Assembly (NCBI GenBank): GCA_030278955.1
Contig: JAOANR010000003.1
Location: forward strand, 23,087,050-23,151,049
Origin: Hygrophila difformis
Taxonomy: Eukaryota > Streptophyta > Magnoliopsida > Lamiales > Acanthaceae
DNA: 64,000 bases
Direction: 5' to 3'
Shown: positions 38,848 through 64,000 of the stretch, piece after piece
Layout of the letters: every line of letters starts with the position of its first letter
Numbering within the stretch: the stretch's first letter is position 1
The notes under the pieces: generated by a model
What the model was told of the DNA's origin: nothing
Database searches by the model: none
What the model saw: only the letters and a program-made list of their open reading frames with translations
Made by a program: the position numbers and the translations under genes

Positions 38848-38983
38848 CGCCAAGATTCTAAGTTCAATTTCGCAAAGATTCTAAGTTCAACGTTGCCAAG
38901 ATTCTAGGTTCAAATTCGCCAAGATTCTAAGTTCAATTTCGCCAAGATTCTAAGTTCAAGTTTTGCCAAGATTCTAAGTTCAT
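38848..38983 (-). repeat. Six-copy 22-24 bp tandem repeat in the element leader
   Basis: Unit CGCCAAGATTCTAAGTTCAA with small variation, six units, between the extra ORF and the primer-binding site. A looser AATAATAGTTTAAAA repeat follows at about 39110-39240. Confidence 0.85.
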
Positions 38984-39245
38984 AGAAGAGATGCAATATA
39001 CAAATGCAAATGATAATCCCCCCCAAAAATAATTTAATGCACCATATATATATATTTTTTTTCCATGGGTTTTAAAATAAAAATTTTCCATGGAAATAAT
39101 ACTTTAAGATTTGAATAATAGTCAAAATATTAATAGTAGTTTAAAATAATAAAGGTTTAAAAATAATAGTTTAAAAGTAATAATGGTTGAAAAAAATAAT
39201 AGTTTAAAAATATTAATGGTTTAAAATAATACTTTAAAAATAGCC

Positions 39246-39258
39246 GGCTCTGATACCA
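39246..39258 (-). other. Primer-binding site of the Tekay-like element
   Basis: TGGTATCAGAGCC on the minus strand, three bases inside the LTR at 39262. Confidence 0.9.
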
Positions 39259-39261
39259 ACT

Positions 39262-41824
39262 TGTAACACCCCGGTTTTTGATAACCCAGGTCGGGGTGCC
39301 ACCGCCATACCTTCCTAGTAAGACACGGTTTCTCCGGCTTACTAAAGAGATGCAAGGCTAGGTATTGCAGTATTTAAAACATTTAAAGCATTCAAACAAC
39401 CCATACAATATAGTTCGAAAATAGTAATATCATAGCGCAGCGGAAATAATATTTAAGTATAGTATTGCAGCGGAAAATGTAAATAGGGCCGACATGGCCA
39501 AAACACGGGTTAAACAGGCCCGTTCATAATATGGTCTAAAGTACGAATTTAAAAACAAAATAATGTTTCCCCAAAATCCCATGCATGAATCGTGCTCATA
39601 CATGCTCATTCCACATACTCTGTAAGAAAAAGGAATAAAAATGGTTTGGTCAACACAACTTGCTGAGTAAGTTAACACAAGCATGATCGTAGGGTTTAAA
39701 AGCCATTAATTTAATAAAAGCATGAAATAACATAGTATTCAGTTTAATCTAAGCAACTATCCAATGCATAATTTATTTCAGGGCTTTATTTAACAACACA
39801 TTTCGCATGATTTAAACTAATAGCCATAATTTAAATAAAGCATTTAAATAATTTAATTGGACATAATTTAATCTAATTTAATTTGATTTAATATCCCCAT
39901 TACATCCCAGATTTGGTATTTCAAAGTTTCATGATAGCATCGCGATGTCAACAAGTTTAGCCGGTAGCCCGGCGGCCGCAACCGTATCAGCCATACCCAG
40001 TACCACTCCGGAGCCTCGGGAAACCCATGTGGATATTCTCGAGAGTGTAGGCTCTATATTTCGCCGTTTTGGCAATATCATATTTCAAGTTTAGCGCGCG
40101 GGGTCACCATCGTCCATTAAGGCACGAAGTGAATCGTTAGAGGGCACCCTGCAGAGCACTCACCCCTAATTTTAATTTATCAAGTTTGTAAGGGGATTTA
40201 ATTTTCAAAATCTGATTTAAAATTCATTTATTTAAGAATAATATTTCAACTTATTTCAATCCTAAAGGTTAATTCCATGTTTCAACAAGATTTCAAGATT
40301 TGATTTCCGGTAAACCACAGTTTACTCTAAAATTCGTCTAAAATCAAATTTAATTCCAAAAATTCCAAAATTTCACAACTGACTCAGAAACGTCGAGATC
40401 TACAACTTTCGTGTTTTAACTTTCTCAATCCGAGATACCGAAATAGGTCAAAAACACCAATTTTCACAGAAGCATAATTCTGTCCGAATTTCCTATGTCA
40501 CAGTTTAAAGATTTCGAATTCTCCCATAGCAATTCAACTCCAAATTTGATGAAATTTTACAGAGACCATCTTAAGACATTTATCTACAACTTTCATGTTC
40601 GGCCAAAGATCTAAATCGGTCTGGAACCTATGTCAAAAACGTGATCAAGATCAAACCTAAGTTCTGTCAAGAATTTCAAGATCTAGATTCAAGCAGTTCG
40701 GTTTCGGTTGGTTTTCACATATCAAATCGTCTCTAAAAATTCTGAAAATTTTACAGTACATAGACCTAAGACTTAGGAACGTTTTTCATGTTTTAAGTTT
40801 TTCCGTTTGAAGTCGTTTTAAGGTTCGGAAAAATTAGACAAAACTGTTGCGCCGATAGAAAACATAATTTGACAGATTTTCGATTCCTTATTTAATCCTT
40901 TAGTTTCGAGCATTTTAATTCATCCCAAAACCATGTAAGAGTTAACTTACAGATTAATCATCGTCCGGGGTCGTCTATTTCGGAGGTGTGGCTTCCAGTC
41001 CACCGTTTCTCCTCTCCGTTCGTCGGGTTCTACGATCTAGATTCAATTCGAGGTGTAGAAGGGAAAAGGAGAAGATTAGGATTCGTTTTCGAATCATATA
41101 TTGAACATGGATTGGATCGGGACTTACCACAACGTCGGAGATCTTTGAAATTTTGTCCAACAGTCCAAGCTTTGGTTTCGTGCCTCCGACGACTCCGAAT
41201 TTAGGGTTTCGAATGTGTAGAGAGTTGTAGGGTTTTGTAAAAGTGTTCGAAGCTTCCACGGGGGTTTATTTATAGATATCTAAGACCTAGGGCGTCCAAG
41301 ATCTGACCCTAAGGGACTTGAGTCGAGAGACGTTCAACCGAAAGTCGAAAAATCCGCGTTCGGGCGAGAGATTCGCGCAACGGGCGAATCTGTCAAGTGG
41401 CGCGGGGTTGGCGCGCCTTTCGCCTAAAAACCGCGCGGCCAGCGCGCGACTTACGCCTGGACTTCGGTCCGGGCGGGTCGTGCGATTCGTCGTGCTTTTC
41501 CGCCTCTCTTTCGGGTTTCTATCCCTCTATGTTCCCGGATTCCAATTTCCGGACTCTCTTCGGGTTTACGAAATAGGAACCCCGTATAATTTATGGTTGG
41601 ACTCGAGTTCTCGAGTTCATTTATATCGGATACCCGTGTAACGACTTATTTAACTTTACTTAATTTTAATTTCTTTTGTTTAATTAAATCTCTTTTAATT
41701 TCATTTCCTATTTCCTCTATATTTATTTATTTAATGTATTTGCTGACTTATTTGCTTATTTATTTATTTATTATATTTATTTATTTCTTTATTTATTTAT
41801 GTTGTAAAATTCTCGGGTATTACA
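39262..41824 (-). repeat. Tekay-like element, LTR (right on plus strand; 5' LTR of the element)
   Basis: 2563 bp, near-identical partner of 30681-33254. The last bases TATTACA are followed by the ATCTG target duplication. Confidence 0.92.
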
Positions 41825-41829
41825 ATCTG

Positions 41830-44299: not shown

Positions 44300-45018
44300 C
44301 CATTGTCGTGGGGAGGGGTGGTGAGAGATTTTTCGCAAAAGCTTCAGTCTATTGGACAATGCTAAGACTGATGTTCCCTGTGATGTGTGTCATATGTCCA
44401 AGTTACATAGACTTCTGGAGTGCTTACTTCTTACTTCTGGAGTAAATATCATAAATAGATGCCCTTCTTGCCTCTGCTCATATCATAAATAGATTGTCAA
44501 CTAAGCTCTTATTTTGGGAATCACCATGTGAGATACTCAAGGGTAGTAAACCTGATTTGTCTACTATACTCTTTTGGTTGCCTTAGCTATGTTAGGATCT
44601 AAATCTTTCATTAGGTAAACTTGATCCTAGAGGGCTTAAAGGGGTTAACCTAGGGGTTGCCCCAAATAAAAAAGGGTATAAAATCCTTGTCCTTCAGTCC
44701 AAGAAGATCATTGTGTCAAGAGATGTATTGTTCTATGACACAATCTTTCCCTTCAAAGACTCTACCCCTCAACCAGCTCAGTCATCCCAGAGTAACCTAC
44801 ATGAATTCTCTGGTTCACCCACTGTGGTCCAGGCATATATACCTATCACTGATGTCCCCACTGGACCTCAGATAAATGTTCTCATGTAACTTCTGCTACT
44901 CATCCCACTGATGAGGAAGCATTACATAACTCTAAGGAATCTCTCAGAGATGATTCATCTTCAGGTTCATCATCCACTATGGTGAACCAGCCTTCTGACT
45001 CTTTGAGCATAGAAGTGA
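44300..45018 (+). pseudogene. Ty1/copia remnant, split by the Athila element
   Basis: Translation in broken frames gives SNAKTDVPCDVCHMSKLHRL-like GAG-pre-integrase sequence near 44350-44410. An integrase tail follows, KKGYKILVLQSKKIIVSRDV and FYDTIFPFKDSTPQPAQSS (about 44667-44775). Much of the integrase core is deleted. The sequence stops at 45018, where the Athila LTR begins; the other half would lie past the right edge. Confidence 0.7.
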
Positions 45019-47876
45019 CTGAAACTTTTGACAATTTCCTACACGAGTATTTTCTAAAATATCCCAAGTTTGAATTTATTAAATGAAAAGAGTTATGATT
45101 CGTAGGAAAGGGGTTTAAGGATATATTTCACTTTTTATTACTCATGTGGAAAACTTTGATTTCAAACGGCGCTGTAGTGCTCCCCGGCATGAGACTTTTG
45201 ACAATTTCCTGCCATGAAAATCCTTGCCATGAAACTTTTGACAAGTTCCCACTATATGAGTATTTTGTGAAAATAATAATCCCGGTTTTCAATTTTTATT
45301 TAATGAAACCAATTTATGAAGATGGAGTTGGGATTAGGGATATATTTATAGGTTGTCACGTTTTTATTACTCGTGTTAAGAAACTGTGCCCCCGAAAGCG
45401 CACGGTGTAAAAAATTGCAGTAATTTATAGTAAGACCGGATCGTTCACTGGAGGATGTGCGATAGAAGCAGGGCCCACATCGTTTACTAAGATTTTTCAC
45501 TCGGTTACTCGATTCAAGTTTTGCAATGGTTTCTAACAACTACTTGACAATAAATTAAACTAGATTATGAAAGCAGTAAAATTATTCTACAAAGCATGGT
45601 AAATTTAGTCTAAAAAGCGATTAAATCTATTCTAAGAAAGCAATAAGAATTATGCTAAGAAAGCAGATAAAATTATTCTACGAAAGCAGATTTAAAATGT
45701 GACAGAAGGGACATGGAGAAAATAATAAAGATTGGACAAGATTTAGATGAAACGCAATTAAACTTCCATTTTAATACACAAATCTTTGTTTGGGATAATC
45801 CATCAGTTAGCTAACTCTCATGCTTTCTAGACTATGTTCCCTTTAGCAGACAGGTACTTACAGTCAGAATTTACATGCTCTTAAGACCTCAACATCTAAG
45901 ATACCACAGATTAATAACTGCCCCTGCCGAGGTATGTTATTCCTCCATGGGGGATAAGCAACACCTAACACATCATTAGTTGACATGCCAAGTACTCCTA
46001 TCATCCCCCTTGTCACACCCAAAGTCCAAATCTAATCCCGAACTAATCCATAACTCTTAAACCTTACAACCGGCGGCCAACCTCTAATTCTTCCGAGTGA
46101 CCTCTACGAAAGCATTTTAAAGAAAGCAGTAAAGAAAGCATTTAAAACCTATCACTCGGAAGTCTTGAAAGATCATCACATTCCGTTAGTATAAAAGAGC
46201 CCCCGGTCTTGGTGACCAGGTGCAGATTTAGAACTTCCCAAATATCAGTAAGCCACAGGGCTTATGACATCCAGTTAGTTACGAGATACATACATGAGTG
46301 GAACAGACCTATGAAGATCTATTCCGAATGTACTCACTCGAGACTCAATTTTAGGCTTTGGCGGGAGAAGATAGTAGTTGAAAGAATACTCAACCCTACC
46401 TTAGAAATTAACCAAGGCCTATATGTTGTTCCTCTAATATTAATTATCACATCTTATCCGACACTGATTCGATGCAACACTTAATAAAAGATTTCCAACA
46501 CACAGCAATTTTTAGAAACAAATAGATGTTTGAAAATCATTCCCTAAACAGGTACTAAACACTCAATTAAAACACAGATCCTTTCAGTCTAGGAGAGACC
46601 TAATCGCTGACTCTGCGTCTAAGTTTCTCAAAATCAACCCCCAGTAGAATATGAGTTAGTCATAACTGTCGATTTATCCCTTACTTAGATCTGGATTTTA
46701 TAAAGGAATTTTTATTGGAAATTTATTGTGCAGCATCTGATTTAAATAAAGACTTCTATGTCCAAGGAGAAGGATCTCCAAAATATTAAAGACCACAATA
46801 TCTACATAGTAATATCATGCATACATGTATATAAGGAGTAAAATAAAATATCCCAAAATATATGGTGGGGTTAGACAGAACTTGGTACACAAAGATGGAT
46901 TAGCCCGAGACAAGAAGAATTTGGCTAAAAAGAGTTCCAGAAATAATTGGGGTTATCCGGACTGCAAACATCTGCTATCCGGTTCCCAAGTATTCCAGAT
47001 GGAATGATTGTTAGACAGTAGGGATCCCTTAATGATAGTGATCGCTATCATCGAGAGTCCTACTGTCTATGAGTGAGGAAAAACCTACACGTTTTCTTAC
47101 TACAGTAATGCTATAACAGTGTTGATCGACACTATCTAACAGTACTGTAACTCGAAATTCGGGTTTGAAACTAAGATAAAGAAAAGGAAACTGTATCCGG
47201 ATAGGAGTCAGCTGAGCAGCTATTATAATTCCGGATGGACGAACCGCTTCCACCGACCACTATCCGGACCCTGCAAAATAACAACTAATAATTAATATTC
47301 AGACTACGAGCTAGTTTATCCGTGTGGTAATACCCGCCAACATTAGTCTGATATATTCCTTACTAGCTGTTTCACACAACACGATAAAAAGAAAAGATGA
47401 AATTAAAAGAATATTTTTGTTACTGTGTGAGTGCTAATCACACAATAATTTAGACACTAATGCATTGAGGTGTGTAATGGATAAAGTGGATGTAATGGGC
47501 CTAAGCTCAATACACCTATGCAGCTTACACAACTCAGGAAGATAAAATGTTTTTGAGGTTTTAAAATAGAAGGAAGAAAGCAATTCGATCTATTGGGCAA
47601 AATGCAAATTAGACCGAATTGAGGATGCATGAGGTATGAAATAATACCGTACCCAGTTAGTCCTTGTAAAGTCATGAAGCATCCTCTAATTCGAATTATC
47701 AAAGCAATTCGGTCTAAACCGAATTGGACAATTCGAATTGATGAAGTCATTCCTTCACTCAAATTTGGCTAAGGCATTTACCCCAAAATGAGGGTAATTC
47801 GAATTGCCAATTGAATTCGGTCTAGACCGAATTGGCAGTTCGAATTGGTAAGAGACATAAAATAAACTAAGGCATG
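45019..47876 (-). repeat. Athila LTR, left copy (minimum extent)
   Basis: Matches 61116-64000 throughout, so the true LTR is longer than the part visible on the right. A candidate end is 49913, where ATCAACA is followed by TCCTCACATTT, that is, a TG start preceded on the minus strand by the purine-rich AAATGTGAGGA. This would give a 4.9-kb LTR. Confidence 0.85.
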
Positions 47877-49570
47877 AAGGGATGGAATGCATACAATATG
47901 GTGTACAAGGTCAATTCGATCTATGGGAGCAATTCGGTCTAAACCGAATTCGCACAGACCGAATTGCTTGTGCACCATATGAGAAGAATTTTTGCTATGT
48001 AATTCGGTCTCATGGGCAATTCGGTTTAAACAAACCGAATTGCCTAGACCGAATTGCATATAGATTTCAGATAAGGCATTCAACAAATATTTTTGCCATG
48101 CAATTCCATCCTCATGGGCAATTCGGTTTAGACCGAATTGCCTAAATCGAATTGCCTCAAATCGAATTGCATGTCTTTTCTCACATACAAGATATTTTGA
48201 GCTCACAAGTACATGTTCGGTTTACACTGTGTGGTTCATGATGGATAAGATTTACCAAAACCTTCATCTCACATCAGTGTCACCTCACAGCCACACTAAT
48301 GAGTGTTTTAAGGAAAATAGGCATAATAGGTTACGTGTCTAGCATGTATTGGCATGAAATAAACCTTAATTCTACAAACAAGCAATCAAAGGTTAAAGAA
48401 CCTAACATATTAAGAAAATAAGAACAGCATGCATGAAGGCAAGAACACCTAAATTATCTAAGACAACAATAAACTAATAAAAGAGACGAAGGACAGCAGC
48501 AAAAAAAATATTGAAAATAAATTCTAACAACCCTAAAATTATCTAAAACCTAAGAACACTCATTTGAAGCACTAAGGTATAAGAACAAGCCAAAAACCCA
48601 CTACACATGCATTTATTGAGAATGTAAGTCAACTAAGACATAATAAATGTAACCTAGTTGAAACAAACAAACATTCTAACATTTATTGCTAAGGAAAGCA
48701 TTAAATAAGTGCCAAACACTTGAAATAAAAACCCATTTCTGGATTTCTTCTTGTATTGACACTTGAAAGCAAATAAATAACCCTAAAACCATCATTAGCT
48801 TGAAGGTAGGGTTCATTCTAACTACAAAGCATTTAAAGTTTATGGTAATGGCTACACTAAAGGTCGTAACAAGCTTCTATAAAAATAAACTAAGATCAAA
48901 AGCATTAAAACTACACTACAAGCATAAAAAAAAATAAACTAACTAACTAAACTACCTACCTAACCCTTAAGGGGTGGAGAACCTTCTGCTCTTTCTTTTT
49001 GTCTCCCAGCCAATGTCAAACTGTGTAAGTGTTCGGATTTTTTTTTTTTTTTTTGTGTTGAGGAAGGTCAGCTTTTATACTTCTTCTCAGAACCCTAGGC
49101 CCATCAGGGCCCATCCACAGTGCCATGCATTTCTCACGTGCTCAAAGCTGCAATTTTGAATGTGATTCGGTCTCCTCAAGCAGTTCGGTTTAGACCGAAT
49201 TGGTGAAATGAGGTCTTTCTTCTTGATCTTGAGCATGGAATGTGGTGATTCGGTCTATGAGTAGACCGAATTGGCCTTGTCGAACTGATGATGGCTCCTG
49301 CTTGGCTTCCTTGTTTTGAGGCAATTCGATCTATGCAATCAATTCGGGCTAGACCGAATTGCATATATCGAACTCCATCTTTTCTTTTCTGCTCAGGGTC
49401 TTCTTCTTTTCAAAGTGCAATTCGGTCTAGGGGTCAATTCGGTTTAGACCGAATTGCCACAAACCGAATTGGTTGCTTTTCTCTTCTTCAACACTTCTCG
49501 TTTTCTTCTTCTTTTCTTCAGCAGTTCGGTCTAATAAGCAATTCGGTTTAGGTCGAATTGCGTATAGACC
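47580..49570. repeat. Nested-palindrome array in and beside the Athila LTR
   Basis: About eleven units built on CAATTCGGTCT and its complement AGACCGAATTG. Perfect or near-perfect cores AATTCGGTCTAGACCGAATT or AATTCGGTTTAGACCGAATT occur near 47707, 47815, 47930, 48018, 48118, 49181, 49340, 49435 and 49540. Units cluster at 47580-48190 and 49155-49570. The part up to 47876 repeats in the right LTR (63706-63975). Because the repeat is palindromic it translates as QFGLDRI on both strands; these are not genes. Confidence 0.85.
49071..49080 (-). promoter_or_regulatory. TATA-like box downstream of a palindrome cluster
   Basis: GTATAAAAGC on the minus strand, 75 bp downstream of the cluster at 49155-49570. 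If the LTR extends to 49913 this would be its core promoter. Confidence 0.45.
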
Positions 49571-49906
49571 GAATTGATCTTCAACACTTAACCAAAATTT
49601 CAGTTTGTGGGATTTTCATTCTTTTTCCCATCTTTTTGATTTTTGTGGGCTATTTTATTCTTTTGCCCATCTTTTCATTCTTTTTTCTTTTCTTTTTCCT
49701 TTTTTCATGTTTTTTGGATTTTTCTAACACAAATGCAATTAAAATTGCATATTTTTGTGTCTTTCGTTACCAGCTTATTTTTCTTACAAACTTGCATTAA
49801 TCTGTCGAATTCAACTGCTTTCTTATTGAAATAAGATGGGAATACGGTCAAAATGTCCGTCTCAGACACGGAAATGGATTGGAAATAATGGACAATTTTG
49901 GCCATT

Positions 49907-49924
49907 ATCAACATCCTCACATTT
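49907..49924 (-). repeat. 18-bp recurrent sequence, copy 3
   Basis: ATCAACATCCTCACATTT (minus: AAATGTGAGGATGTTGAT). Identical copies are at 52356-52373 and 54909-54926. This copy has no flanking hairpin. Confidence 0.7.
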
Positions 49925-51621
49925 AATACGGATCGTCCCCGAGCAGTCAGAGTCGGTGCTCCTAGGAGCATGGACTCTGCACATTCAATCCATTTGCGTG
50001 GCTTCAAAAATTTCATTCTTATTATATTGGGATAATACAATCAAAATTACAAGTATTAAACTCTTTTGATTGCAGTGTTTAATGAAATGATACTTCTCAC
50101 TTAGAGGATATGCAAATCACTCATTATTGTTAATTCTTCTTGAATATATGTATAGAAAATTTCATTGGTTTAATTCTTGAATTAAAGCATGACATGAGCA
50201 TTAATCAATCAAAGCAGAGCCTCACATATAGTAGAATCGAAAATTTCACTCACTCTCAAAGTTGGCTTTTAGACAATTCTCTCATAATCAAATTCAAATA
50301 AATTCTCCCATAAGCTTGCAATTAGACCAACTCGCCACCTACTCATTTCCTCAAATCGAGATCCCGAGGTCTTATTCAAGGGTTATAATGGGGCATACGG
50401 TTGTAACATCAGTATGGAAGGAATTCATTGGCTAAAAGTGACACAATTCCATTCCACCTTAACTTGGCATGTTTTTATTTAGAGTCTATGATCATCAACA
50501 ATTCTTTCTTTCTTTTGTTTTTCTTTTCTAATGCATGACATTAGACTTTGTCTAATTTGCTTTGTCAATTGCAACTTTTTTTTTTGACCGGTTCATGGAT
50601 ACCGATTGATACATTTTGATGATCATAACCTATAATGCCTTGATGGAATTGGTTTGTGCACACTTGGGTTCGATTTTCTTGGTCTTTTTATAAGGCTAGA
50701 AAAATATAGTGGTTTCAAAGAAAAATTAGGCTTAAAGGCTCAAAGTGGTTAATCTTAAAGAGAAAATATTTTTGGGTTTGGAATTCAAACGAAGGCCAAA
50801 ATTTTGGGTTTTTCTAAGTGCCTCGATCATATGCTCGGTTTCGGGAATATGGCATGGTCTTGAATCGGTCCCAATTGCAAGTTCTAGTATCCTCTAATCG
50901 AATTGATTTTCACACAACCAAAGAAATAATGAGTAAAAATGACTCGGCTCAGACCTCACATGGTATGGTTTGATCATATCACACCTTTATTCTTAAATTT
51001 AGCCTTTGAAAGATTCTTGCATTTTATTCAATCAAATTCTCAACATGAAAATTTTGTTTTTCTTCCAAGTGATCATATCATTGGATTTTTATAGCTCAAA
51101 ACCTCAAGAATTTATATCATGCATATTTTTAATTGTTTTATCCCAATTTAATAGTTTGAAAATTTCATCCTTAGCCTAAATTCAACATGTGAATTTAGGT
51201 GACAGATTTATGCTCGTTTCATGCCGGTTATTAAAGTGAAAGCAGTAAAGAGATACTGTGAACATGCAAGCATGTTACAGCTTTGTTTTTGGCGTGACAA
51301 TCACTTATTCATCTTGGACTGTCACACATCTTTTTCAAAAATATTTTTGAGAATTCAAGACGAAATTCTCTTGTGAAAAGCAGTAAATGATTAATACCAA
51401 AATACAGCTTCTAACCACCACATCGAGTGGTTTCAAGGTTCGTCTTAAAGCTACGACCCTACATACAGAAACCCATTAATACATTAATTACAGGAGATGC
51501 TATACACTTGGGTAAAGTTTTCACAAGGAGCATTTCAAAAGATCTCCTAATTGAGGTTTCAGTTTAAATTACTCATAAATGACTCTATACAGCTGAGTCT
51601 GTCTTCCACATCCTTCTTCCC
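49925..51621. other. Noncoding interior of the Athila element
   Basis: No supported gene. Downstream of the F-box gene on its strand, so it may contain that gene's 3' UTR and terminator. The open frame at 49705-50040 (minus) shows no recognisable domain. Confidence 0.35.
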
Positions 51622-53795
51622 TTATCCTTGGAAGAAAATCCTGCTCCAGTGGACAAAGTTTGTCAGGCTGCAGGGCAAGCAGTAATCACCCTCGTCATCC
51701 TGATTCTCCAGCACTTTCTGGCAGTAGATCCTGGGTCCTTGGAAAATGAATAGATCAGGAGTCTCCAGGCTTTCCATCAACCATGCAAAGACGTTGTTGC
51801 CCACGTATGCCATGACTGATTCGTCCGTCACCATCTTGTTGATCATTGCTATTCCGTGATCGACCTGTTCCTTGTCCAGCTTGCTAAGCAGCATGAATCC
51901 CCTGACAAAGATTGATGCCTTGTGATTGTCATCAATCCCTGGCTTCAGCAGTTCACAGGCCCTTTCCTCATTGCCTGCTCCGAATGCTTGTAGGGCTGGC
52001 ACGAACTGGAGGTAGTAGTTGCCTGCGTTGACACACTTCTGCATGAGTTCCTCCTTTTCCGCCTCGACTCCTATCTCCCACATCTTAACGATTGTGGTTT
52101 CCAGTTCGCACTCTTGTACACAACGGGGAGATCCCCAGCTGCTTTGAACTTCTTGCACACCCTTCTGGCAGCGAAAACCTTTTTGAGGTCATCCTCTCCT
52201 ATGCGGGAGAGGATTTCTCCTAGAAGTTCCATTGGCAGGTCCAGTAGTTCGAGCCTGTCCTGTTCTAGAGCTGGTCCTGGCAGGATGATGTCCCTGGCGA
52301 AGAGAAATTGGAACTATTTTTAACAAGTTTTTGATAACAGTATTCAAGTTGCAAAATCAACATCCTCACATTTTGAGCTATGCTCTAAATGTGAGTTAAT
52401 TGGTTTTACTTGAATTTATTGAGCTATACCACTTATTAAAAGACAGTGAGTTAGATTACAGACTCCAACTGTTATTACAACTAAAAAGTAAAGGAAATAA
52501 GAGAAGTAAGGGTCTTGGGCCCTTACCAATTTTTCTTAGACTAAAAATAGTCTAAAGATTTTTGAATGGTCAAAGGACCAAAAGAAAGAGTTTTATAGGC
52601 TATTGAGCCTACAAAAGAGAAGTGTATATTTTTGATCACTATAAGAGTAATCAAAAGCATATAAAAAAGGAAGATAGATATTTAATAATGAAGAATTCAA
52701 TACATAAGAAGAGTTATGCAATTACTAGGACAAGGTGATGGACTAAGAGAAAAGAATAAATGAAAATAGAAACAAGCATACACATGCAAAAAGGTTATTT
52801 TTGGATTTTATGGAAAGTGTTGACTTGTTTATTTAATGAAATTGAGGGTGTGAGTGGTCCCCCATTTGAGTTTTTGTTTTGGAAAATGGGTGTTAATGGG
52901 TGAGCAAAGTTGCTACCCTTGTTTATTCCCCACATATCCCAATAATAAACATGTCAACTACTTGAATAAAAACAAAATTCTGTCAACCATTTGTCTTTTT
53001 AGGCAAAAGTGCCATGCCAATAGTGTTTGAAAAACACTTGTCGGGAAAAATTTTGGCATGGTTTCCTCTGTAATACCATGTTTCCAGTGTATGCAAACAT
53101 CAACTTTTCAGTTGAGTTTGTAAGTGGTGGTAACAGGTACCCCACAGGAGCATTTATTCAGAGGGATGCATAATTCAGTACATGCAAACAACAAAACAAC
53201 ATATGAAAATAGTCCATTCACACCAGTATCATGCAAAACTTTGCCAATAAATCATGCTTCAAAAACATAGATTCGGCAACATCATCAACATGCATATCCA
53301 ACAACATTATCAAATATCCAGTAAACAAAATAACACAGTGGTTGCAGGGGAAAATAAACCACTGTGTTTTCCCATTTTCATATCCTCAAAGATTAAACAA
53401 GCAACACGGTATATGCAAGCACTAACAATAGCAACACAAAATCACAAAGATGAGACAAAAACAGATTTTTATGGGTTTTGAAGCCCAAAGTTTTCAAAAT
53501 TGAAGCATCCCCTACACCACAAAAAGCTTAAAACATCAACAATGGTGGTTCGAACTCAAGCAAGAAAAAGCCCTAGTTCGGACTACTCTGTTAAAGCCTA
53601 TTCCGACCACACCCAACTCATTCCGACCACTTTCCGACCACGCTCAACACGAAAACAGTCCTCATTCCCCTCCCCATGACCGATTTCGCAAAAACGAAGG
53701 AAAACCAAAACTGGAATCGCGAAAATGAGAGTGCGAAATCGAAAACAGGACACTTACCCGACACTCTCAGTAGGATTAGACGAATAAGACGCCAT
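51622..53795 (-). pseudogene. Captured F-box gene with repeat-like C-terminal region, two exons, one frameshift
   Basis: Probable F-box substrate adaptor (SCF ubiquitin ligase), of the kind annotated as At2g35280/At1g67623-like. Exon 1 53758-53795 encodes MASYSSNPTESV plus two bases and ends at the donor GTAAGT. Exon 2 starts 52293 after ATTTCTCTTCGCCAG, and the split Gly codon joins in frame (intron 1464 bp). Exon 2 begins with the F-box ELLDLPMELLGEILSRIG...VFAARRVCKKF (about 52240-52140). After a 1-nt loss near 52108 it continues TTIVKMWEIGVEAEKEELMQ, NYYLQFVPALQAFGAGNEER, ACELLKPGIDDNHKASIFVRG, YCQKVLE and DYCLPCS, to a stop at 51622. A TATA box lies 145 bp upstream of the ATG. It sits inside the Athila element on the gag-pol strand, after pol. 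No env features (signal peptide, transmembrane helix) are seen. The exon 1 assignment is inference from splice signals. Confidence 0.65.
52356..52395 (-). repeat. 18-bp recurrent sequence, copy 2, with hairpin
   Basis: ATCAACATCCTCACATTT at 52356-52373, then TGAGC TAT GCTC TAAATGTGAG, so CTCACATTT-GAGC pairs with GCTC-AAATGTGAG around a 3-nt loop (52365-52395). It lies 62 nt upstream of the F-box exon 2 acceptor. Confidence 0.7.
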
Positions 53796-53936
53796 TTTGA
53801 AAGCTTTGGACGGAGTCGAACGAGGTCAATCACTGGCTCGAGCTCTGGTTTCGTGAGGAAGATGAAGTTCGCGAAAGGGGGTTTGGAAAATATCGAAGTG
53901 TGGGAGAGTGAAAGTGAGGGAAAAGAGGGGGAAAAT

Positions 53937-53949
53937 GGAATATATAGGG
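53937..53949 (-). promoter_or_regulatory. TATA box of the captured F-box gene
   Basis: CCCTATATATTCC on the minus strand, about 145 bp before the ATG at 53795 and immediately downstream of the palindrome array at 53960-54600. Confidence 0.55.
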
Positions 53950-53959
53950 TTTGGGATAG

Positions 53960-54600
53960 GGGAGCAATTCGGTCTTATGGGAGACCGAATCATCAATTCG
54001 GTCTAGACCGAATTGATGTGGTCTCCAAGTGCTTGTGAGAGATTCGGTCTCTTAGGCCAATTCGGTCTAGACCGAATTGGCATGGAGACCGAATTGAGAG
54101 AAAACAAGCAAATACTTACTGCAATGCATTTTTTGAAGTCAATTCGGTCTAGACCGAATTGGGCTAGAGACCGAATTACAGCAAGAAGACCGAATTTGGG
54201 TACTTAGGAAAAAGAATGGGAGATGCTCTCTTGTGAGGCAATACGGTCTATATGGGCAATTCGGTCTAAACTGAATTGCCTTATAGATCGAATTGCTCAC
54301 TTGCAAGAATAAAACTAAGGAATCAAAATGACTTTTGTAAGCCAATTCGGTCTATTCAAGGTCAATTCGGTGTAAACCGAATTGATATAGACCGAATTAC
54401 TTACTTGGCCCAACTTACACCAGGATGGAGCATGCGTCTTGGGTAGTCAATTCGGTCTCCTAGGCCAATTCGATCTAGACCGAATTGGCTTGGAGATCGA
54501 ATTGGTTAAAATTCCCAAGGCACACCTCCAATGCGATCTGTTTCAAACAATTCGATGTAGACCGAATTGATCTGAGATACAAAGAAGATCGCATTCAACA
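53960..54600. repeat. Nested-palindrome array upstream of the F-box gene
   Basis: Seven units spaced about 60-120 bp, with cores near 54007, 54067, 54150, 54270, 54371, 54477 and 54556. Most units have the form CAATTCGGTCT, spacer, CAATTCGGTCTAGACCG..., spacer, AGACCGAATTG, so an inner perfect palindrome is bracketed by an outer inverted repeat of the same 11-mer. Point mutations in one arm (GATCT, AACTGAATT) are scattered. The last unit has a diverged outer arm (GATCGCATT/AATGCGATC). Confidence 0.88.
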
Positions 54601-54789
54601 CTTAGATAATTTTTTTTTACCATTTTCTGAAATTATGGATTTTCTTAAAAATTAGCATACTGAAAACACCTATTTAAACAGAAATATTACTCTATTATAA
54701 ATTGCTTGCATAAATTAGGCTGGATTAACACCCTCATTTTACGGATTTATTCCGGATTTTAAATTTCTCTAAATTCCGAAATTACTTTC

Positions 54790-54866
54790 CAATAGATGTA
54801 GTATTAATCCAACCGGGAACCTGGTTTTTGGAGCTTTATCTTTCTTTTTGTTGGTTCCATGAATCC
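54790..54866 (-). pseudogene. Possible remnant of an env-like ORF start with splice acceptor
   Basis: On the minus strand TTATGTCTGTCTTGCAG (acceptor at 54867) is followed by GGATTC and ATG, giving a short basic peptide MEPTKRKIKLQKPG that soon stops. In Athila-type elements an env-like ORF is expressed from a spliced RNA with an acceptor just after pol. Only the start is left here. Confidence 0.3.
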
Positions 54867-54908
54867 CTGCAAGACAGACATAAGAAAATTATTAAATTTT
54901 CTCCAAAT

Positions 54909-54948
54909 ATCAACATCCTCACATTTAGAGTCTTAGTACTCTAAATGT
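54909..54948 (-). repeat. 18-bp recurrent sequence, copy 1, with hairpin
   Basis: ATCAACATCCTCACATTT at 54909-54926. ACATTTAGAGT (54921-54931) and ACTCTAAATGT (54938-54948) form a perfect 11-bp stem with a 6-nt loop. It is about 75 bp after the pol stop codon. Confidence 0.7.
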
Positions 54949-55022: not shown

Positions 55023-57551
55023 TTATTGAGCATAGGCCGGCTCTGATGTCATTTGGACTTCTTTTTCGGGGTCGAACTGTCCTAGATACTCCTTCAGTCT
55101 CTGTCCGTTCACCACCAGCTCTCCTTTGTCAGTTCGAATCCTGACAGCTCCACTTTCAAACACGTGCACCACTTCGTATGGCCCTTCCCATCTGGATTTA
55201 AGCTTTCCGGGGAACAGCTTCAACCTAGAATTGAATAACAAGACATTTTGGCCAACATAGAAGTGTTTAGATTTTATACGACGATCGTGTAACTTCTGGG
55301 TTTGCTCTTTGTAAATCCTCGAGCTTTCATAAGCTTGCGCACGTATTACCTCAATTTCATTAAGGTCAAACTTGCGTTTACTCTGAGCAACTCGTGGGTC
55401 AAAATTAAGCGTTTTTACGGCCCAGTAAGCCTTGTGCTCTAGTTCTACCGGCAGATGACAGGCTTTTCCAAAGACAAGCCTGTATGGGGACATCCCAATG
55501 GGAGTCTTGAATGCAGTGCGGTATGCCCATAGAGCGTCATTGAGTTTACGCGACCAGTCTTTGCGGGTTATCCCCACAGTGGCCTCGAGTATGTGTTTGA
55601 TTTCACGGTTAGATACCTCGACTTGGCCACTGGTTTGGGGATGATAAGGCGTGCCGATCTTGTGGAGAATCCCACTTCTGCTCATGAGATTTGCAAAAGC
55701 TTTGTTGACAAAGTGGGTTCCTCCATCAGATATGATTACCCTAGGTACACCAAATCTATTGAAAATGTTATTTTTAAAAAATTTGATGACTAGGTGACCA
55801 TCGTTGGTTGGCAGCGCAACTGCCTCGACCCACTTGGACACGTAATCGACAGCTACCAAGATGTAGTGATTCCCATCAGATGTCGGGAATGGTCCCATGA
55901 AGTCAATACCCCATACATCGAAAATCTCAAGGATGAGAATTCCTTTTTGAGACATTTCATCCCTCTTGGAGATATTCCCTAATCTTTGGCATCTGTCGCA
56001 AGCTTTAACAAACGCCTTGCAATCCTCGTAAATGGTAGGCCAATAGAAACCACACTCGAGCACCTTGTGAGCTGTTCGAGTGGGGCCGTGGTGACCTCCA
56101 TATTCCGATTCATGACATTTTTTAGCGATTTGATAAGCCTCGTGCTCAGTTACACATCGTCTAATAATAGAATCTGCACAATGCTTAAAGAGATAAGGGT
56201 CTTCCCAGAAGTAGTCAACTACATCTTGGTTGAACCTTGCTTTCTGTTTCTTGTTCTGGAATGGTGGGGTTATTCCACATGCTAAAAAGTTAGCAATGTC
56301 GGAAAACCATGGACAAGCTTGATCATGAAGGTGCAAGGCAAACAGTTGCTCATCCGGAAAATTTTCATTGACGGCTATCTCTTTTTTATCATTTTCTATT
56401 CGAGACAAGTGGTCAGCAGCACCATTGTCTCTTCCTTTTCTATCTTTTATTATGATGTCAAATTCCTGCAACAAAAGTACCCACCTGATTAATCGAGGTT
56501 TGGCATCTTGTTTGCTGAACAAGTATCTCAGTGCAGAGTGATCGGTGTATACTATGGTTTTCGTACCAATGAGGTATTGTCTGAATTTATCAAACGCGAA
56601 AACCACAACATACATCTCTTTCTCCGTGGTGGTGTAATTGACTTGGGCTTCAGTCAGGGCATGGCTGGCGTAATGAATCACGCAGTGCCTTCCTTCCTTA
56701 TGTTGCCCAAGAACTGCACCCACGGCGAGATCACTTGCATCGCACATTACCTCGAAAGGCATTGACCAATCGGGTGGTTGCACTATTGGAGCAGAAATCA
56801 ACATCTTCTTGAGCGTGTCAAAGGCTCGAACACACGCTTCATTTATTACGAAAGAATTTTCTTTACAAAGCAAATTAGTGAGCGGCTTGGCAATTTTAGA
56901 GAAGTCTTTAATGAATCTCCGGTAAAAACCGGCATGCCCTAAGAAACTCCTAACTGCTTTTATTGAGTTTGGTAACGGAAGGTTGGATATGACTGAGACT
57001 TTGGCCCTATCGACTTCGATACCTGCGCGCGAGATGCGGTGACCCAACACTATTCCTTCGGTGACCATGAAATGGCACTTCACCCAGTTCAAAACTAGGT
57101 TAGTGTCCTCGCATCTTTTTAAAATTTTTGCAAGATTTGTCAGACATTCATCAAAAGTATCTCCATACACAGAGAAGTCATCCATGAAAACTTCAATGCA
57201 TTTTTCGATAAATTCTGAGAAGATAGACAACATGCATCGCTGAAAAGTGGCAGGCGCATTGCAAAGTCCAAAAGGCATGCGCCTGTACGCAAAAGTTCCA
57301 TACGGGCACGTGAAAGTGGTCTTATCATGATCTTCACTAGCTATTACAATCTGATTGTAACCAGAGTACCCATCCAAAAAGCAGTAATACTCCCTCCGGG
57401 CCAACCTCTCCAGCATCTGATCAATGAATGGCAAGGGAAAATGATCCTTCCGCGTAGCGGTGTTAAGCTTCCGGTAGTCGATGCAGACTCTCCAACCGGT
57501 TACTGGACGTGTCGCCACTTCTTCTCCTTGCTCATTAGTCGTTATGCACAT
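55023..57551 (-). CDS. Athila RT-RNase H-integrase polyprotein segment
   Basis: 842 open codons. [22 protein letters not shown] (residues 20-39), [32 protein letters not shown] and the catalytic FMDDFSVYG (122-130). RNase [17 protein letters not shown] (about 268-283), [11 protein letters not shown] and [10 protein letters not shown]. Integrase: HHCC zinc domain (His480 to about Cys521, [10 protein letters not shown]...CDRCQ), then catalytic Asp550 ([10 protein letters not shown]), Asp609 ([11 protein letters not shown]) and Glu645 (GQVEVSNRE), a DD35E spacing. The C-terminal [11 protein letters not shown]-type motif is present and no chromodomain follows, as in Athila. The first codons belong to a frameshifted junction at about 57545; the RT N-terminus lies in the frame at 57542-57733. 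Codon integrity suggests a recent, nearly intact pol. Confidence 0.95.
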
Positions 57552-57733
57552 CCCCCCACATTAGGTACTACCTGCACTGGGCTAACCCATTTGCTGTCAG
57601 ATATAGGATAGATGATACCAGCATCTAAGAGCTTGATAACTTCTTTCCTTACCACTTCTTGCATGTGGGGGTTCAGACGCCTTTGTGGTTGCCTAGAGGG
57701 CTTGTACTCATCTTCCATTAAAATTCTGTGCAT
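57542..57733 (-). pseudogene. Athila RT N-terminus, separated by a frameshift
   Basis: Reads MHRILMEDEYKPSRQPQRRL, VVRKEVIKLLDAGIIYPISD and SKWVSPVQVVP, the canonical start of gypsy RT, before shifting frame near 57545 into the main pol ORF. Confidence 0.88.
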
Positions 57734-57852: not shown

Positions 57853-59325
57853 TTACCGGTAATTTTTTATGTTCAGCGAGAAAACGTACTTAAGATGATC
57901 CGGAAGTATTTTAAGTTCAAGCTCTGGCGGACATTCAACGGAAGGCAGTAATTTGCGAGAAATGGTTGGGGGTGAAAGATCAGATTTACCTTCAGGACCC
58001 TGTGTCAGTACGGGGTCCACTTCCTCTTCCATGGTGCTCTCTTCCTCCTCCGGAGTGAATTCAACACCGTCGAACTCTTCAAGATCCCCAGTGATAGGGT
58101 CTTCGAAGTGAACAGCGTTGCAGCTTCTTTGTTGCTCAGCACCTCCAGGCGTCAGTACCTGTTTTGAAACTTTGTCCGTCACCACAGTCATAGAGTCTAT
58201 GCTCTCATCCTCACACCTACTTTCTATTACATCAAACATGGAACAAGATCCCTCATTCGGGAATTTCTGCAGCTCCTCCATGTCAAAAGAGACTTCTCTG
58301 TTGTCGACCCTCAGTGTGACTCTTCCAGATGTGGCATCAATCAGTGCACCGCCAGTGGCCCGAAACGGGCGTCCCAGGATAAGCGGCATTTCAGAGTCCT
58401 CTTCAATGTCAAGGATGATGAAGTCAACCGGGAAAAGAACTTGGCCGGTTTTGACTACCACATCCTTGAGGATTCCTACGGGCTTAGTGATTGATCTGTC
58501 TTCCAGTTGCAGTTTCATCTTGACCGGTTCAATCTCTCCGAGCCTTAGGCGAATTGCCATGGCTAGAGGCATCACGTTGATGCTGGATCCCAGATCACAT
58601 AACCGCATGCTCACTTTGGCCTTTCCAATCTGTACTGGTAGCGTGCAACATCCAGGGTCCTCTTTCTTTTCGGGCAGTTTCCTCTGAACTATGGCACTGC
58701 ATGTGCTGTTGAGAATGATCACCTCCTCCTGCTCTACCTGCCTTTTCCCTGAAATCAATTCTTTCAAGAACTTAGCATAGGTGGGCATTTCTGAAATCAT
58801 TTCCACGAGAGGAATGGTTATCTCTACAGACTTTAATCGTTCCAGAAATTTCTTGAATTTAAGGTCATGTTCCTTATTTTTAAGACGTACAGGGTATGGC
58901 ACCCTTGGCATGTACTTATTATTATCAATTTTTGGTGGTAAAGAGAAGGAAGTTGTACCTTCACCCATACCCTTTTCAGCTTCATTTGCAGCTTCAGCCT
59001 GCGTGTTTGCTGTATCTGATTTATCCTTTACCAGCTCAACACCTTCATCTCCTTCAACCTTTTCCTTTTCCTTTTCCACCTCCAATGAAACCTTTACTTT
59101 CATACCTTTCTTCTTTGCAGATCCAACATTTCCCTTCAGAGTCTTGCCTCCCCACAATGTGATTGCCTTGCATTGCGGGTTGGCTTCAGTGCTGCTCGGC
59201 AGTGTTCCTTTTCCTCTGTTCTGCAATTCCTTAGCCAACTGGGTGACCTGCGTCTCCACATTTTTGATTGATGACTGCAACTGCTGGTTTATCTCCCTTT
59301 GATTGGAAATAAACTCAGTCATCAA
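57853..59325 (-). pseudogene. Athila gag C-terminus and retroviral-type protease
   Basis: 490 open codons. The N-terminal part (NQQLQSSIKNVETQVTQLAKEL) is a coiled coil typical of the Athila gag end, followed by a Lys/Glu-rich linker. The protease region (about residues 225-345) has CTLPVQIGKAKVSMRLCDLGSSINVMPLAMA, where Asp-Leu-Gly-Ser replaces the common D-[ST]-GA, and DSEMPLILGRPFRATGGALIDA (the ILGRPFL.T flap motif). It ends in an acidic stretch. In-frame stops separate it from upstream gag and from RT, so it is not continuous with them in this copy. Confidence 0.85.
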
Positions 59326-59799
59326 ATTCTCCAGGCGAGATGGTGGCTTTTAGTTGTATTGCTGATTCTTATCAGGTTGGGCTTGGAAGTTTTGGAAATT
59401 CTGGCCTTTGTTTTGGTTGGGCCTCTGTTGGATATGGGGTTGAAAGTTCTGATTCTGATTCTGGAAGTTCTGCACTCTCTGTTGAACGAATCCTTAGATC
59501 TGAGGTCTGAAGTTCTGCTGAGGGTTTTGGTTTGCAAACTGGTTAGGCTGATTTGGCTGTGTCAACAAATGCGCATTGAGTGCATTGTTGTTGGAATAGG
59601 AGAGGTTGGAGTGGCGGTTTTGGTAGTTCCCTGCGTAATTGCAGCTTTCGGTAGCTAGTTGTTGGCATATGTCAGTTGGATGTGGTCCCTGACACAGGCC
59701 ACAGATTGCTCCCGATTGCTGTGCTTGTACTTGGCTAGATGAGGCTCCTGCCTGAGGAGTACCTGCTCCCTTTCCTTTCTCCATCTGTTTTTCCTTCAC
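59326..59799 (-). pseudogene. Athila gag zinc-binding and Gln/Asn-rich region
   Basis: ICGLCQGPHPTDICQ is the atypical Athila-type zinc knuckle (C..C.G.H....C), followed by Asn/Gln-rich sequence (NYQNRHSNLSYSNNN, QFANQNPQQNF). Stops near 59492 and 59350 interrupt it, and the frame differs from the upstream gag, so an indel lies near 59790. Confidence 0.8.
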
Positions 59800-60820
59800 T
59801 CACAGCAAAAACTTTTCTAGGGGGGTCCACCTTCTTGTCACTGCTGTTCAATACAGATCTATTGACAGACATTGTCTCAATCTTTTCCCAGGCTTGATCC
59901 ATGGGCAAATGGAGTAAATGTCTTCCGCCTGCAGCGTCCAACATCATTCTCCATGGATGGGTGAGCCCTCCATAGAATTTCCTCATTTGCTCCCATGGTT
60001 GATATCCGTGTTGGGGGCATCGCCTCAAGAGGCTGGAGAACCTCTCCTTTGCATCATACAATGACTCGTCCGGCTTCATCTTGAACTCTCCAATTTTCTC
60101 TCGTCCCTCGTCTATCTTAGATTCAGGAAAGTACTTCAACAGAAAGCTCCTCACCAAATCTGCCCAGGTGCTCCTCTGATTTATGGGCAATGATTTATAC
60201 CAATCCCTGGCACCACTAAACAAAGAAAAGGGAAACAACATTAGTCTTATAGCATCAGGTGAGACTCCCTGATTTTTGATTGTATCGCAGAGCTCCAGGA
60301 AGGTTTGGAGATGATCATGGGGATCCTCATGATTTGCACCGCAAAATTGGTTGTTTTGCACCAAGTTGATGAGTGCCGGTTTGAGCTCAAAATTGCGTGC
60401 AGGAAATTGTGCTCTCCCAGGCCTATCCAGATAGGGCTCCACGATGGGCTGCATAAAATCAGCTGTTGCTTGCTGCTATTGATTTCCTTGCTCTGCTTGG
60501 TTTTGATACTGTTGGTGGTAGTTGGGATTCTGTTGGAAAATATTATCGGGATCATGAGGGTTGTTTTGGAACTGGTCCTGATTGAAGGCTTGATTCTGGT
60601 ATTGCTGGTTTGGTATATTTTGGTTTTGTTGGTTATATTGGTTAGGGGGTGGTGGTTGTTGGTGGAATTGCTGGTACTGTTGCTGATTTGGATTAGGTAG
60701 ATTTTCCTCCTCGTTGGCACGATTTAGGTGTTCTACCATACCCCCATCAGCTCCATTACCAGGGTTATTGGGTGGTTGGTCTATTGGTAAGATCGGGGGA
60801 ATGTCCTGGTTTTCTGCCAT
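59735..60820 (-). pseudogene. Athila gag with one amber stop
   Basis: Starts MAENQDIPPILPIDQPPN at 60820. A Gln/Asn/Pro-rich N-terminus runs to a single in-frame TAG (60473-60475), flanked by Gln codons and probably from CAG. The same frame continues with MQPIVEPYLDRPGRAQFP and the retrotransposon gag domain: FELKPALINLVQNNQFCG, HDHLQTFLELCDTIKNQGV, LMLFPFSLFSGARDWYKSLP, WADLVRSFLLKYFPESK, REKIGEFKMKPDESLYDAKE and FYGGLTHPWRMMLDAAGG. These are closely Athila-like (P.SL...A..WL..LP). Ends at a frame break near 59735-59790. Confidence 0.9.
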
Positions 60821-61098: not shown

Positions 61099-61115
61099 CC
61101 CCGGCAACGGCGCCA
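61099..61115 (-). other. Primer-binding site of the Athila element
   Basis: TGGCGCCGTTGCCGGGG on the minus strand, directly abutting the LTR at 61116. This sequence is characteristic of Athila-type elements. Confidence 0.88.
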
Positions 61116-64000
61116 TGAAACTTTTGACAATTTCCTACACGAGTATTTTCTAAAATATCCCAAGTTTGAATTTATTAAATGAAAAGAGTTATGATTCGTG
61201 GGAAAGGGGTTTAAGGATATATTTCACTTTTTATTACTCATGTGGGAAACTTTGATTTCAAACGGCGCTGTAGTACTCCCCGGCATGAGACTTTTGACAA
61301 TTTCCTGCCATGAAAATCCTTGCCATGAAACTTTTGACAAGTTCCCACTATATGAGTATTTTCTTAAAATAATAATCCCGGTTTTCAATTTTTATTTAAT
61401 GAAACCAATTTATGAAGATGGAGTTGGGATTAGGGATATACTTATAGGTTGTCACGTTTTTATTACTTGTGTTAAGAAACTGTGCCCCCGAAAGCGCACG
61501 GTGTCAAAAATTGCAGTAATTTATAGTAAGACCGGATCGTTCACTGGAGGATGTGCGATAGAAGCAGGGCCCACGTCGTTTACTAAGATTTTCCACTCGG
61601 TTACTCGATTCAAGTTTTGCAATGGTTTCTAACAACTACTTGACAATAAATTAAACTAGATTATGAAAGCAGTAAAATTATTCTACAAAGCATGGTAAAT
61701 TTAGTCTAAAAAGCGATTAAATCTATTCTAAGAAAGCAATAAGAATTATGCTAAGAAAGCAGATAAAATTATTCTACGAAAGCAGATTAAAAATATGACA
61801 GAAGGGACAGGGAGAAAATAATAAAGATTGGACAAGATTTAGATGAAACACAATTAAACTTCCATTTTAATACACAAATCTTTGTTTGGGATAATCCATC
61901 AGTTAGCTAACTCTCATGCTTTCTAGACTATGTTCCCTTTAGCAGACAGGTACTTACAGTCAGAATTTACATACTCTTAAGACCTCAACTTCTAAGATAC
62001 CACATATTAATAACTGCCCCTGCCGAGGTATGTTATTCCTCCATGGTGGATAAGCAACACCTAACACATCATTAGTTGACATGCCAAGTACTCCTATCAT
62101 CCCCCTTGTCACACCCAAAGTCCAAATCTAATCCCGAACTAATCCATAACTCTTAAACCTTACAACCGGCGGCCAACCTCTAATTCTTCCGAGTGACCTC
62201 TACGAAAGCATTTTAAAGAAAGCGATAAAGAAAGCAGTAAAGAAAGCATTTAAAACCTATCACTCGGAAGTCTTGAAAGATCATCACATTCCGTTAGTAT
62301 AAAAGAGCCCCCGGTCTTGGTGACCAGGTGCAGATTTAGAACTTCCCAAATATCAGTAAGCCACAGGGCTTATGACATCCGGTTAGTTACGAGATACATA
62401 CATGAGTGGAACAGACCTATGAAGATCTATTCCGAATGTACTCACTCGAGACTCAATTTTAGGCTTTGGCGGGAGAAGATAGTAGTTGAAAGAATACTCA
62501 ACCCTACCTTAGAAATTAACCAAGGCCTATATGTTATTCCTCTAATATTATTTATCACATCTTATCCGAATCCAAGCGGACACTGATTCGATGCAACACT
62601 TAATAAAAGATTTCCAACACACAGCAATTTATAGAAACAAATAGATGTTTGAAAATCATTCCCTAAACAGGTACTAAACTCTCAATTAAAACACAGATCC
62701 TTTCAGTCTAGGTGAGACCTAATCGCTGACTCTGCTTCTAAGTTTCTCAAAATTAACCCCCAGTAGAATATGAGTTAGTCATAACTGTCGACTTATCCCT
62801 TACTTAGATCCGGATTTTATAAAGGAATTTTTATTGGAAATTTATTGTGCAGCATCTGATTTAAATCAAGACTTCTATGTCCAAGGAGAAGGATCTCCAA
62901 AATATTAAAGACCACAATATCTACATAGTAATATCATGCATACATGTATATGAGGAGTAAAATAAAATACCCCAAAATATATGGTGGGGTTAGATAGAAC
63001 TTGGTACACAAAGATGGATTAGCCCGAGACAAGAAGAATTTGGCTAAAAAGAGTGCCAGAAATAATTGGGGTTATCCGGACTGCAAACATCTGCTATCCG
63101 GTTCCCAAGTATTCCAGATGGAATGATTGTTAGACAGTAGGGATCCCTTAATGATAGTGATCGCTATCATCGAGAGTCCTACTGTCTATGAGTGAGGAAA
63201 AACCTACACGTTTTCTTACTACAGTAATGCTATAACAGTGTTGATCGACACTATCTAACAGTACTGTAACTCGAAATTCGGGTTTGAAATTAAGATAAAG
63301 AAAAGGAAACTGTATCCGGATAGGAGTCAGCTGAGCAGCTATTATAATCCCGGATGGACGAACCGCCAAGGCTTCCACCGACCACTATCCGGACCATGCA
63401 AAATAACAACTAATAATTAATATTCAGACTACGAGCTAGTTTATCCGTGTGGGAATACCCGCCAACATTAGTCTGATATATTCCTTACTAGCTATTTCAC
63501 ACAACACGATAAAAAGAAAAGATGAAATTAAAAGAATATTTTTGTTACTGTGTGAGTGTTAATCACATAATAATTTAGACACTAATGCATTGAGGTGTGT
63601 AATGGATAAAGTGGATGTAATGGGCCTAAGCCCAATACACCTATGCAGCTTACACAACTCAGGAAGATAAAATATTTTTGAGGTTTTAAAATAGAAGGAA
63701 GAAAGCAATTCGATTTATTGGGCAAAATGCAAATTAGACCGAATTGAGAATGCATGAGGTATGAAATAATACCGTACCCAGTTAGTCCTTGTAAAGTCAT
63801 GAAGCATCCTCTAATTCGAATTGTCAAAGCAATTCGGTCTAAACTGAATTGGACAATTCGAATTGATGAAGTCATTCCTTCACTCAAATTTGGCTAAGGC
63901 ATTTACCCCAAAATGAGGGTAATTCGAATTGCCAATTGAATTCGGTTTAGACCGAATTGGCAGTTCGAATTGGTAAGAGACATAAAATAAACTAAGGCAT
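61116..64000 (-). repeat. Athila LTR, right copy, truncated by window end
   Basis: Aligns with 45019-47876. Indels relative to the left copy include an extra GATAAAGAAAGCAGTAAAG-like stretch near 62225, an extra AATCCAAGCGG near 62570 and an extra AAGGC near 63368. The palindrome units at 63706-63975 match those at 47580-47850. Confidence 0.9.

Follow-up and report, generated by a model that had tools for sequence, protein, structure and literature searches.

Host-type domains added to plant Gypsy elements are already known. As far as the accessible text of a screen of 121 angiosperm genomes goes, orchid Ty3/gypsy elements carry an ORF for an AlkB-type m6A demethylase (PMC9289625). Like the element described here, these are plant Gypsy elements of large size that have gained, in addition to gag-pol, a host-type enzyme gene for which an action against host surveillance was proposed, but their additional protein is a 2-ODD protein, whereas ours is an F-box/TPR_27 protein, and a term search of the main text of the screen did not return the word F-box (PMC9289625). 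An F-box gene between the LTRs of a Ty1-copia element was described in flax, in the accessible part of that report as a single insertion and as a transduplication (PMC5142383). It shares with our locus the presence of an F-box gene within an LTR element, but it is one copia insertion, whereas the gene described here belongs to a Ty3/gypsy family, is found at 188 motif places, is under selection and retains a conserved intron. In the accessible sources this one-off is the only F-box precedent found. Within the literature covered, to which preprints and most subscription papers do not belong, an F-box gene was nowhere described as a recurrent or selected, intron-bearing component of a family of LTR retrotransposons.

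The Athila/Calypso/Diaspora lineage is described in the accessible parts of two reports as having env-like ORFs, and splicing of the Bagy2 env was reported (PMC1142308, PMC7264820). The common features with the element analyzed here are the gag-pol layout and an extra sense ORF between pol and the 3' LTR (PMC1142308, PMC7264820); the differences are that the extra ORF encodes an F-box/TPR_27 protein and that the LTRs measure 4.9 kb. Concerning function, F-box proteins acting on AGO1 can serve as a model for a selfish element which turns SCF on silencing: AGO1 is reported to be a target both of host FBW2, by way of SCF, and of polerovirus P0, in the latter case with a reported contribution of autophagy to its degradation. 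The analogy to P0 is imperfect because autophagy is implicated, and P0 is likened here by role and not by sequence.

The window, the whole stretch of 64,000 nucleotides from Hygrophila difformis that was analyzed, had been described in a first-pass annotation as containing an F-box gene carried inside an Athila-type retrotransposon. The F-box segment lies within a complete Athila-like Ty3/gypsy insertion of ~21.0 kb, which is a single element (Table 1). Completeness and length follow from the presence of both 4.9-kb LTRs and of GTGAC at each end; LTR pair and target-site duplication show one complete insertion, and a later, unrelated arrival of 47877-54900, which the annotation had considered, does not agree with them. 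The window element has an LTR pair, a target-site duplication, TG..CA ends and the order gag, then RT-RNaseH-integrase, as expected for Ty3/gypsy. Using 47700-51600 as query against the genome we identified a sister LTR copy at C9:23150874-23153080 that matches query positions 1-2211, and the extent of the LTR was therefore set to 45020-49910. Within the window the alignment of the LTR pair has 2885 columns and an identity of 97.3%, with 49 mismatches among the 2856 columns free of gaps; this dates the insertion to ~0.7 million years if the substitution rate used for dating, 1.3e-8 per site per year, is assumed. The primer site TGGCGCCGTTGCCGGGG is putatively complementary to tRNA-Asp and may in this respect resemble that of the Athila/Calypso/Diaspora lineage. 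A tRNA-Asp primer is given for Calypso and Diaspora in the accessible text on these elements, where the primer site starts 5 bp away from the LTR, in contrast to the direct contact seen here (PMC1142308). The label Athila-like is provisional and rests on primer site and layout, not on a tree.

Table 1. Positions of the features of the F-box element in the window and of one region of the second family (locus named).
Feature	Position	Strand	Remark
Target-site duplication GTGAC	45015..45019	.	second copy beyond window, G000:C9:23153081-23153085
3' LTR, 4.89 kb	45020..49910	-	begins TGATAATGG (49910), finishes TTTCA (45020)
18-mer AAATGTGAGGATGTTGAT, copy across 3' LTR junction	49907..49924	-	polypurine tract expected there
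F-box/TPR_27 gene, whole	53795-51622	-	between pol and 3' LTR
Exon 2, F-box then TPR_27	51622..52293	-	frame broken near 52108
Predicted intron, 1464 nt	52294..53757	-	GTAAGT donor, AG acceptor
18-mer AAATGTGAGGATGTTGAT, intron copy	52356..52373	-	exact; about 60 nt ahead of acceptor
Exon 1, 38 nt: MASYSSNPTESV + two bases of split Gly codon	53758..53795	-	
TATA-like box CCCTATATAT (sense)	53940..53949	-	145 bp above ATG
18-mer AAATGTGAGGATGTTGAT, post-pol copy	54909..54926	-	exact; <100 nt past pol stop
pol: reverse transcriptase, RNase H, integrase	55023..57560	-	open frame 845 aa
gag-pol linker with aspartic-protease-like stretch	57853..59349	-	E 0.011, below cut-off
gag (PF03732)	59735..60475	-	Pfam profile match
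Primer-binding site TGGCGCCGTTGCCGGGG	61099..61115	-	adjoins 5' LTR directly
5' LTR, part inside window	61116..64000	-	extends to G000:C9:23153080
Charged reading region, second family	L064:221-1006 and 997-2319		two inverted repeats CACATTTAGAG..CTCTAAATGTGAG ahead

The extra ORF between pol and the 3' LTR has the domain content F-box/TPR_27. A recognisable F-box ORF on the gag-pol strand had been read from the letters, and a Pfam profile search of the exon-2 translation bore this out with both domains over cut-off: F-box (PF00646) with 27.8 bits (cut-off 20.5; window 52295-52074) and TPR_27 (PF23310) with 29.4 bits (cut-off 27; window 52188-51622). The gene is preceded in the same orientation by gag, RT, RNase H and integrase. 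The designation as SEL1-type F-box protein was right with respect to an F-box and a repeat-like domain, but the label is better given as Pfam PF23310 (TPR_27). Plant F-box proteins with PF23310 are presumably those of the At2g35280/At1g67623 type. The frameshift noted near 52108 is real: the two domains of the broken window copy fall in two different frames, of which the F-box frame stops after '..VYKSANWKPQSLRCGR' and the other carries on to the stop at 51622. The F-box of a further copy (L010) also exceeds the gathering score with 25.7 bits (cut-off 20.5), whereas L029 (17.9), L032 (16.8) and L033 (19.7) stay below it; TPR_27 reaches 29.4-32.3 bits (cut-off 27) in the window and in all four of these copies. 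A profile search of the PDB returned nothing at E 10, and exon 2 of L010 compared with 5.8 billion predicted proteins, a collection which we take to include few plants, gave 182 candidates, none at E 0.001. A structure prediction of the 188-aa piece from the window, made without alignment, was poor (pLDDT 38.9) and was set aside.

The assembly searched for further copies comprises 915 Mb in 246 contigs. A degenerate 26-mer from the 3' end of exon 2 was found at 188 genomic places and its reversed control at none, which is more than chance would give. With the downstream 188-aa piece as query 6237 first-look candidates were obtained, and 120 of the best 150 (window included) were free of in-frame stops. 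Plant F-box gene counts can be inflated by such mobile copies. The annotation had asked whether other family members hold the segment at the same position; this is the case in 18 of 20 fetched close copies, where it lies between integrase and 3'-LTR sequence. Of these 10-kb copies, 18 have the integrase immediately before the segment in the same orientation (exceptions L017 and L026), three of them with a truncated match (L012, L019 and L020), and 3'-LTR sequence follows downstream in 19, the match in L009 ending before the LTR. Among five more diverged copies (5.1 kb each) the integrase was matched in L029 and L031, the region is masked in L030, and L032 and L033 had no match. In L032 the upstream part of the F-box gene comes almost at once after LTR sequence and pol is unmatched in the 5.1 kb fetched; this copy is possibly an internally deleted derivative.

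Approached from the side of pol, an integrase 26-mer was found at 419 genomic places. Within the first 100 of them, 26 are followed in the same orientation by an F-box place 3.4-16 kb downstream, with 23 of the distances falling in the range 3.4-4.1 kb and three in the range 12.6-15.6 kb; 25 of these 26 are recovered when the F-box motif list is used by itself, and a mirror control with the same list recovers none. For the other 74 of the first 100 places no F-box partner was detected downstream. Of the 49 F-box motif places in the range examined, no more than 25 have the exact integrase motif upstream, so divergence or truncation may account for part of the 74. The F-box gene is a regular, but not a universal, partner of the integrase motif. 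A comparison of L031 with L010 yielded dS values of 0.50 for the F-box part, 0.14 for the integrase and 0.09 for RT; with such unequal values the element looks mosaic, pol and the 3' part having different histories. The best 150 scored places are filled by element copies, and only one locus (L051, G000:C10:34087500-34091500) looks like an ordinary host gene. This host-like TPR_27 gene resembles the element gene in a TPR_27 domain over cut-off and, by eye, in an F-box-like exon and C-terminal cysteines, but its F-box-like part is located in a separate open stretch, whereas F-box and TPR_27 of the element share one exon.

The F-box ORF is under purifying selection across copies. For 30 intact copies and 224 codons the ML omega is 0.142 (lnL -4688.66 versus -5011.69 at omega 1), in answer to the earlier proposal to compute dN/dS across copies, and pairwise pN/pS (435 pairs) lies between 0.13 and 0.23 in each dS class above 0.03 and at 0.80 in the three closest pairs. 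In 13 close copies pN/pS is 0.130 for exon 2 (78 pairs), 0.266 for RT-RNaseH (55 pairs) and 0.307 for the integrase (66 pairs). Intron, upstream and downstream segments of the same copies, read in three pseudo-frames each (nine in total), gave 0.62-0.99, and exon 2 read in the wrong frames gave 1.19 and 1.77; intron and flanks are nearer neutral than exon 2. Pol diverges less than the F-box region within the same copies. Exon-2 dS exceeds pol dS, and a check at 4-fold sites gave a divergence of 0.084 for exon 2, the same as in the intron (0.084), against 0.055 for the integrase and 0.046 for RT. The exon-2 frame is intact in 30 of the 41 copies examined, a fraction that, like the 120 stop-free places among the best 150, is biased because the copies were picked by F-box similarity with a leaning to stop-free ones. 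The earlier term transduplication is correct insofar as an F-box gene lies inside the element, but it understates the situation of a resident gene selected at an omega of 0.142.

F-box proteins enter SCF ubiquitin ligases via SKP1 and select the substrate. Since they choose what the SCF acts on, an F-box gene under selection in a mobile element would redirect host proteolysis. On balance we lean towards the view that the resident F-box/TPR_27 gene of this ~21-kb Athila-like family, kept by purifying selection, encodes an SCF adaptor which marks an element-restraining host protein for destruction. The F-box protein would bind host SKP1 and act as SCF adaptor, and this adaptor would bring about the destruction of a host restriction factor. 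Judged by the analogy to polerovirus P0 and host FBW2, the substrate would most likely be a silencing factor or another restriction factor. A host-type, intron-bearing gene kept under selection in a retroelement implies that the element needs the gene, and the substrate of the F-box protein would offer a direct handle on how plants restrain retrotransposons.

A TPR_27 search of the genome returned, among the best 150 of 5039 candidates, mostly a different ORF of 260 aa. A 22-mer derived from this ORF was found at 584 places (up to 2 mismatches; control 5). The sequence of its surroundings described here is one 9.9-kb stretch of a single copy (L063+L049+L064), which matches the window gag with 52% over 128 aa and the protease region with 57% over 187 aa; the window RT, RNase H and integrase found no match in this one stretch. 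The order is gag-protease, four different F-box ORFs in a row (F1-F4) and then a long charged reading region, of which a 441-aa part is without Pfam match. F1 and F3 are frame-broken in this copy; in L050, the other copy for which the array was read, the sequence is colinear at 93%, F1, F3 and F4 are open and F2 is broken. An F-box cut-off is passed by F1, F3 and F4, and the TPR_27 cut-off of 27 by F1 (27.1) and F4 (53.1), with F3 (26.6) just under it, whereas F2 reaches neither cut-off and has no TPR_27 match. Local alignment of the array proteins with the window-type protein gave 31-38% identity, and the four ORFs are 26-53% identical among themselves (F1/F3 53%). For F4 a pN/pS of 0.186 was calculated (45 pairs; 10 intact among 13 fetched copies), and the single pair L049-L050 gave 0.45 for F2, 0.28 for F3 and 0.15 for F4. 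The F-box core and three C-terminal cysteines are among the positions invariant in nine proteins. Taken together, the sequences suggest one old capture followed by duplication inside elements.

Four diverged F-box ORFs in a relative with no pol match in the stretch read fit a diversification of targets. The same purifying selection would be expected if the F-box protein acted on the element's own proteins and tuned the turnover of Gag, integrase or particles, limiting or timing transposition, and gag-protease and the F-box array indeed remain together in the second family. We regard such a self-directed action as unlikely, since a self-limiting gene is hard to maintain by element-level selection and four F-box ORFs in one element with 26-53% identity suggest several or changing targets.

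The proposed adaptor gene contains a predicted intron. The earlier model of a short exon 1 with a GTAAGT donor, an acceptor about 1.46 kb away and a split Gly codon agrees with an intron of 1464 nt at 53757-52294, and this junction is joined in one intronless genomic copy. The TATA box placed 145 bp upstream of the ATG was recovered as a TATA-like box at 53949-53940. Over TATA-like box, 5'UTR motifs, ATG and exon 1, 25 copies can be aligned, the window among them, and 24 of these have GTAAGT. Donor and acceptor occur together in 24 of 26 long copies including the window (exceptions L017 and L025), and 23 of the 26 have, in addition to both sites, a phase-2 exon 1 of 38 nt; an open spliced frame of 236-238 codons is present in 17 of the 24 copies with both sites. 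Across subfamilies the intron is 68-86% alike to that of the window, and the sites and the split-Gly phase are kept.

A probe of 27 bases spanning the spliced junction, with 3 mismatches allowed, which would detect 18 of the 24 copies if they were spliced, gave in the whole genome a single match with one mismatch at C12:58447600-58447626 and none in the control. In the 270 bases read of this intronless copy (L066) the sequence runs without a gap from above the TATA-like box via exon 1 to roughly the 35th base of exon 2. This is most naturally explained by splicing of a long element RNA followed by its reverse transcription, an event that would be rare compared with the copying of unspliced RNA. 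A precise loss of the intron at the DNA level is unlikely because the excision is exactly GT-AG. The aligned TATA-like boxes and 5'UTR motifs would also be compatible with a gene that is an independent unit, expressed only from the internal TATA-like promoter, and with a long element RNA that is never spliced. This we consider improbable: since the intronless copy extends to above the TATA-like box, the intron seems to have been lost from at least one RNA of greater length. The element RNA apparently is spliced, with most copies probably derived from unspliced RNA, and by analogy to retroviral env expression splicing would be incomplete or regulated.

For the adaptor reading this means that the element RNA would be spliced to an F-box mRNA in the way retroviruses make env mRNA, and that unspliced RNA would be the form mostly reverse-transcribed, so that the intron would persist. 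If true, the plant element would have an env-like splicing economy with a spliced mRNA for the extra gene and unspliced RNA for mobilisation. As a tentative extension, we propose that Athila-like elements evolved a counter-defence by way of SCF, in which a spliced and selected F-box gene in the env slot may act against a silencing factor and later may have become a four-gene arsenal in the putatively gag-only relative.

The notion of a passenger, a host F-box gene taken up on one occasion and since multiplied with the element without serving any function, can draw on gene capture by plant LTR retrotransposons, which is known in the accessible text for ORFs then present in one or few copies (PMC7264820), and on the flax copia element with its F-box gene (PMC5142383). 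As it stands it is contradicted, and in our opinion very improbable, by an omega of 0.142 next to an intron and flanks that are nearer neutral, by the splice phase kept across subfamilies and by 188 motif places instead of one or few copies. Domestication of some copies, with purifying selection at the level of the host, has the one intronless copy in its favor and is just as improbable, as 30 intact copies at dispersed places would be many loci for host use and the 13 intact copies whose flanks were read sit in elements with LTR and, with few exceptions, pol sequence.

The 18-mer AAATGTGAGGATGTTGAT occurs in three exact copies on the element sense strand of the window. With 0-1 mismatch it was found at the post-pol site in 19 of 25 long copies, at the intron site in 18 of 25 and at the LTR junction in 17 of 20. 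The three copies may be duplicates of the polypurine tract or scars left where cassettes were joined. By eye, two of the three sites come after an inverted repeat. Palindrome-like repeats based on CAATTCGGTCTAGACCGAATTG are dense at window 47800-49600 in the LTR and at 53970-54570 upstream of the F-box gene, and the 10-mer GACCGAATTG/CAATTCGGTC has 29 matches in the window and 10-34 per copy in the 20 fetched 10-kb copies. A second LTR element is located at window 30671-41828 (minus strand), with an LTR pair of 97.6% identity and gag, protease, RT, integrase and an SH3_Tf2-1 domain. At window 101-793 a match to an MRS2-like magnesium transporter (PF22099, 53.2 bits) was found, which is perhaps an exon of a host gene.
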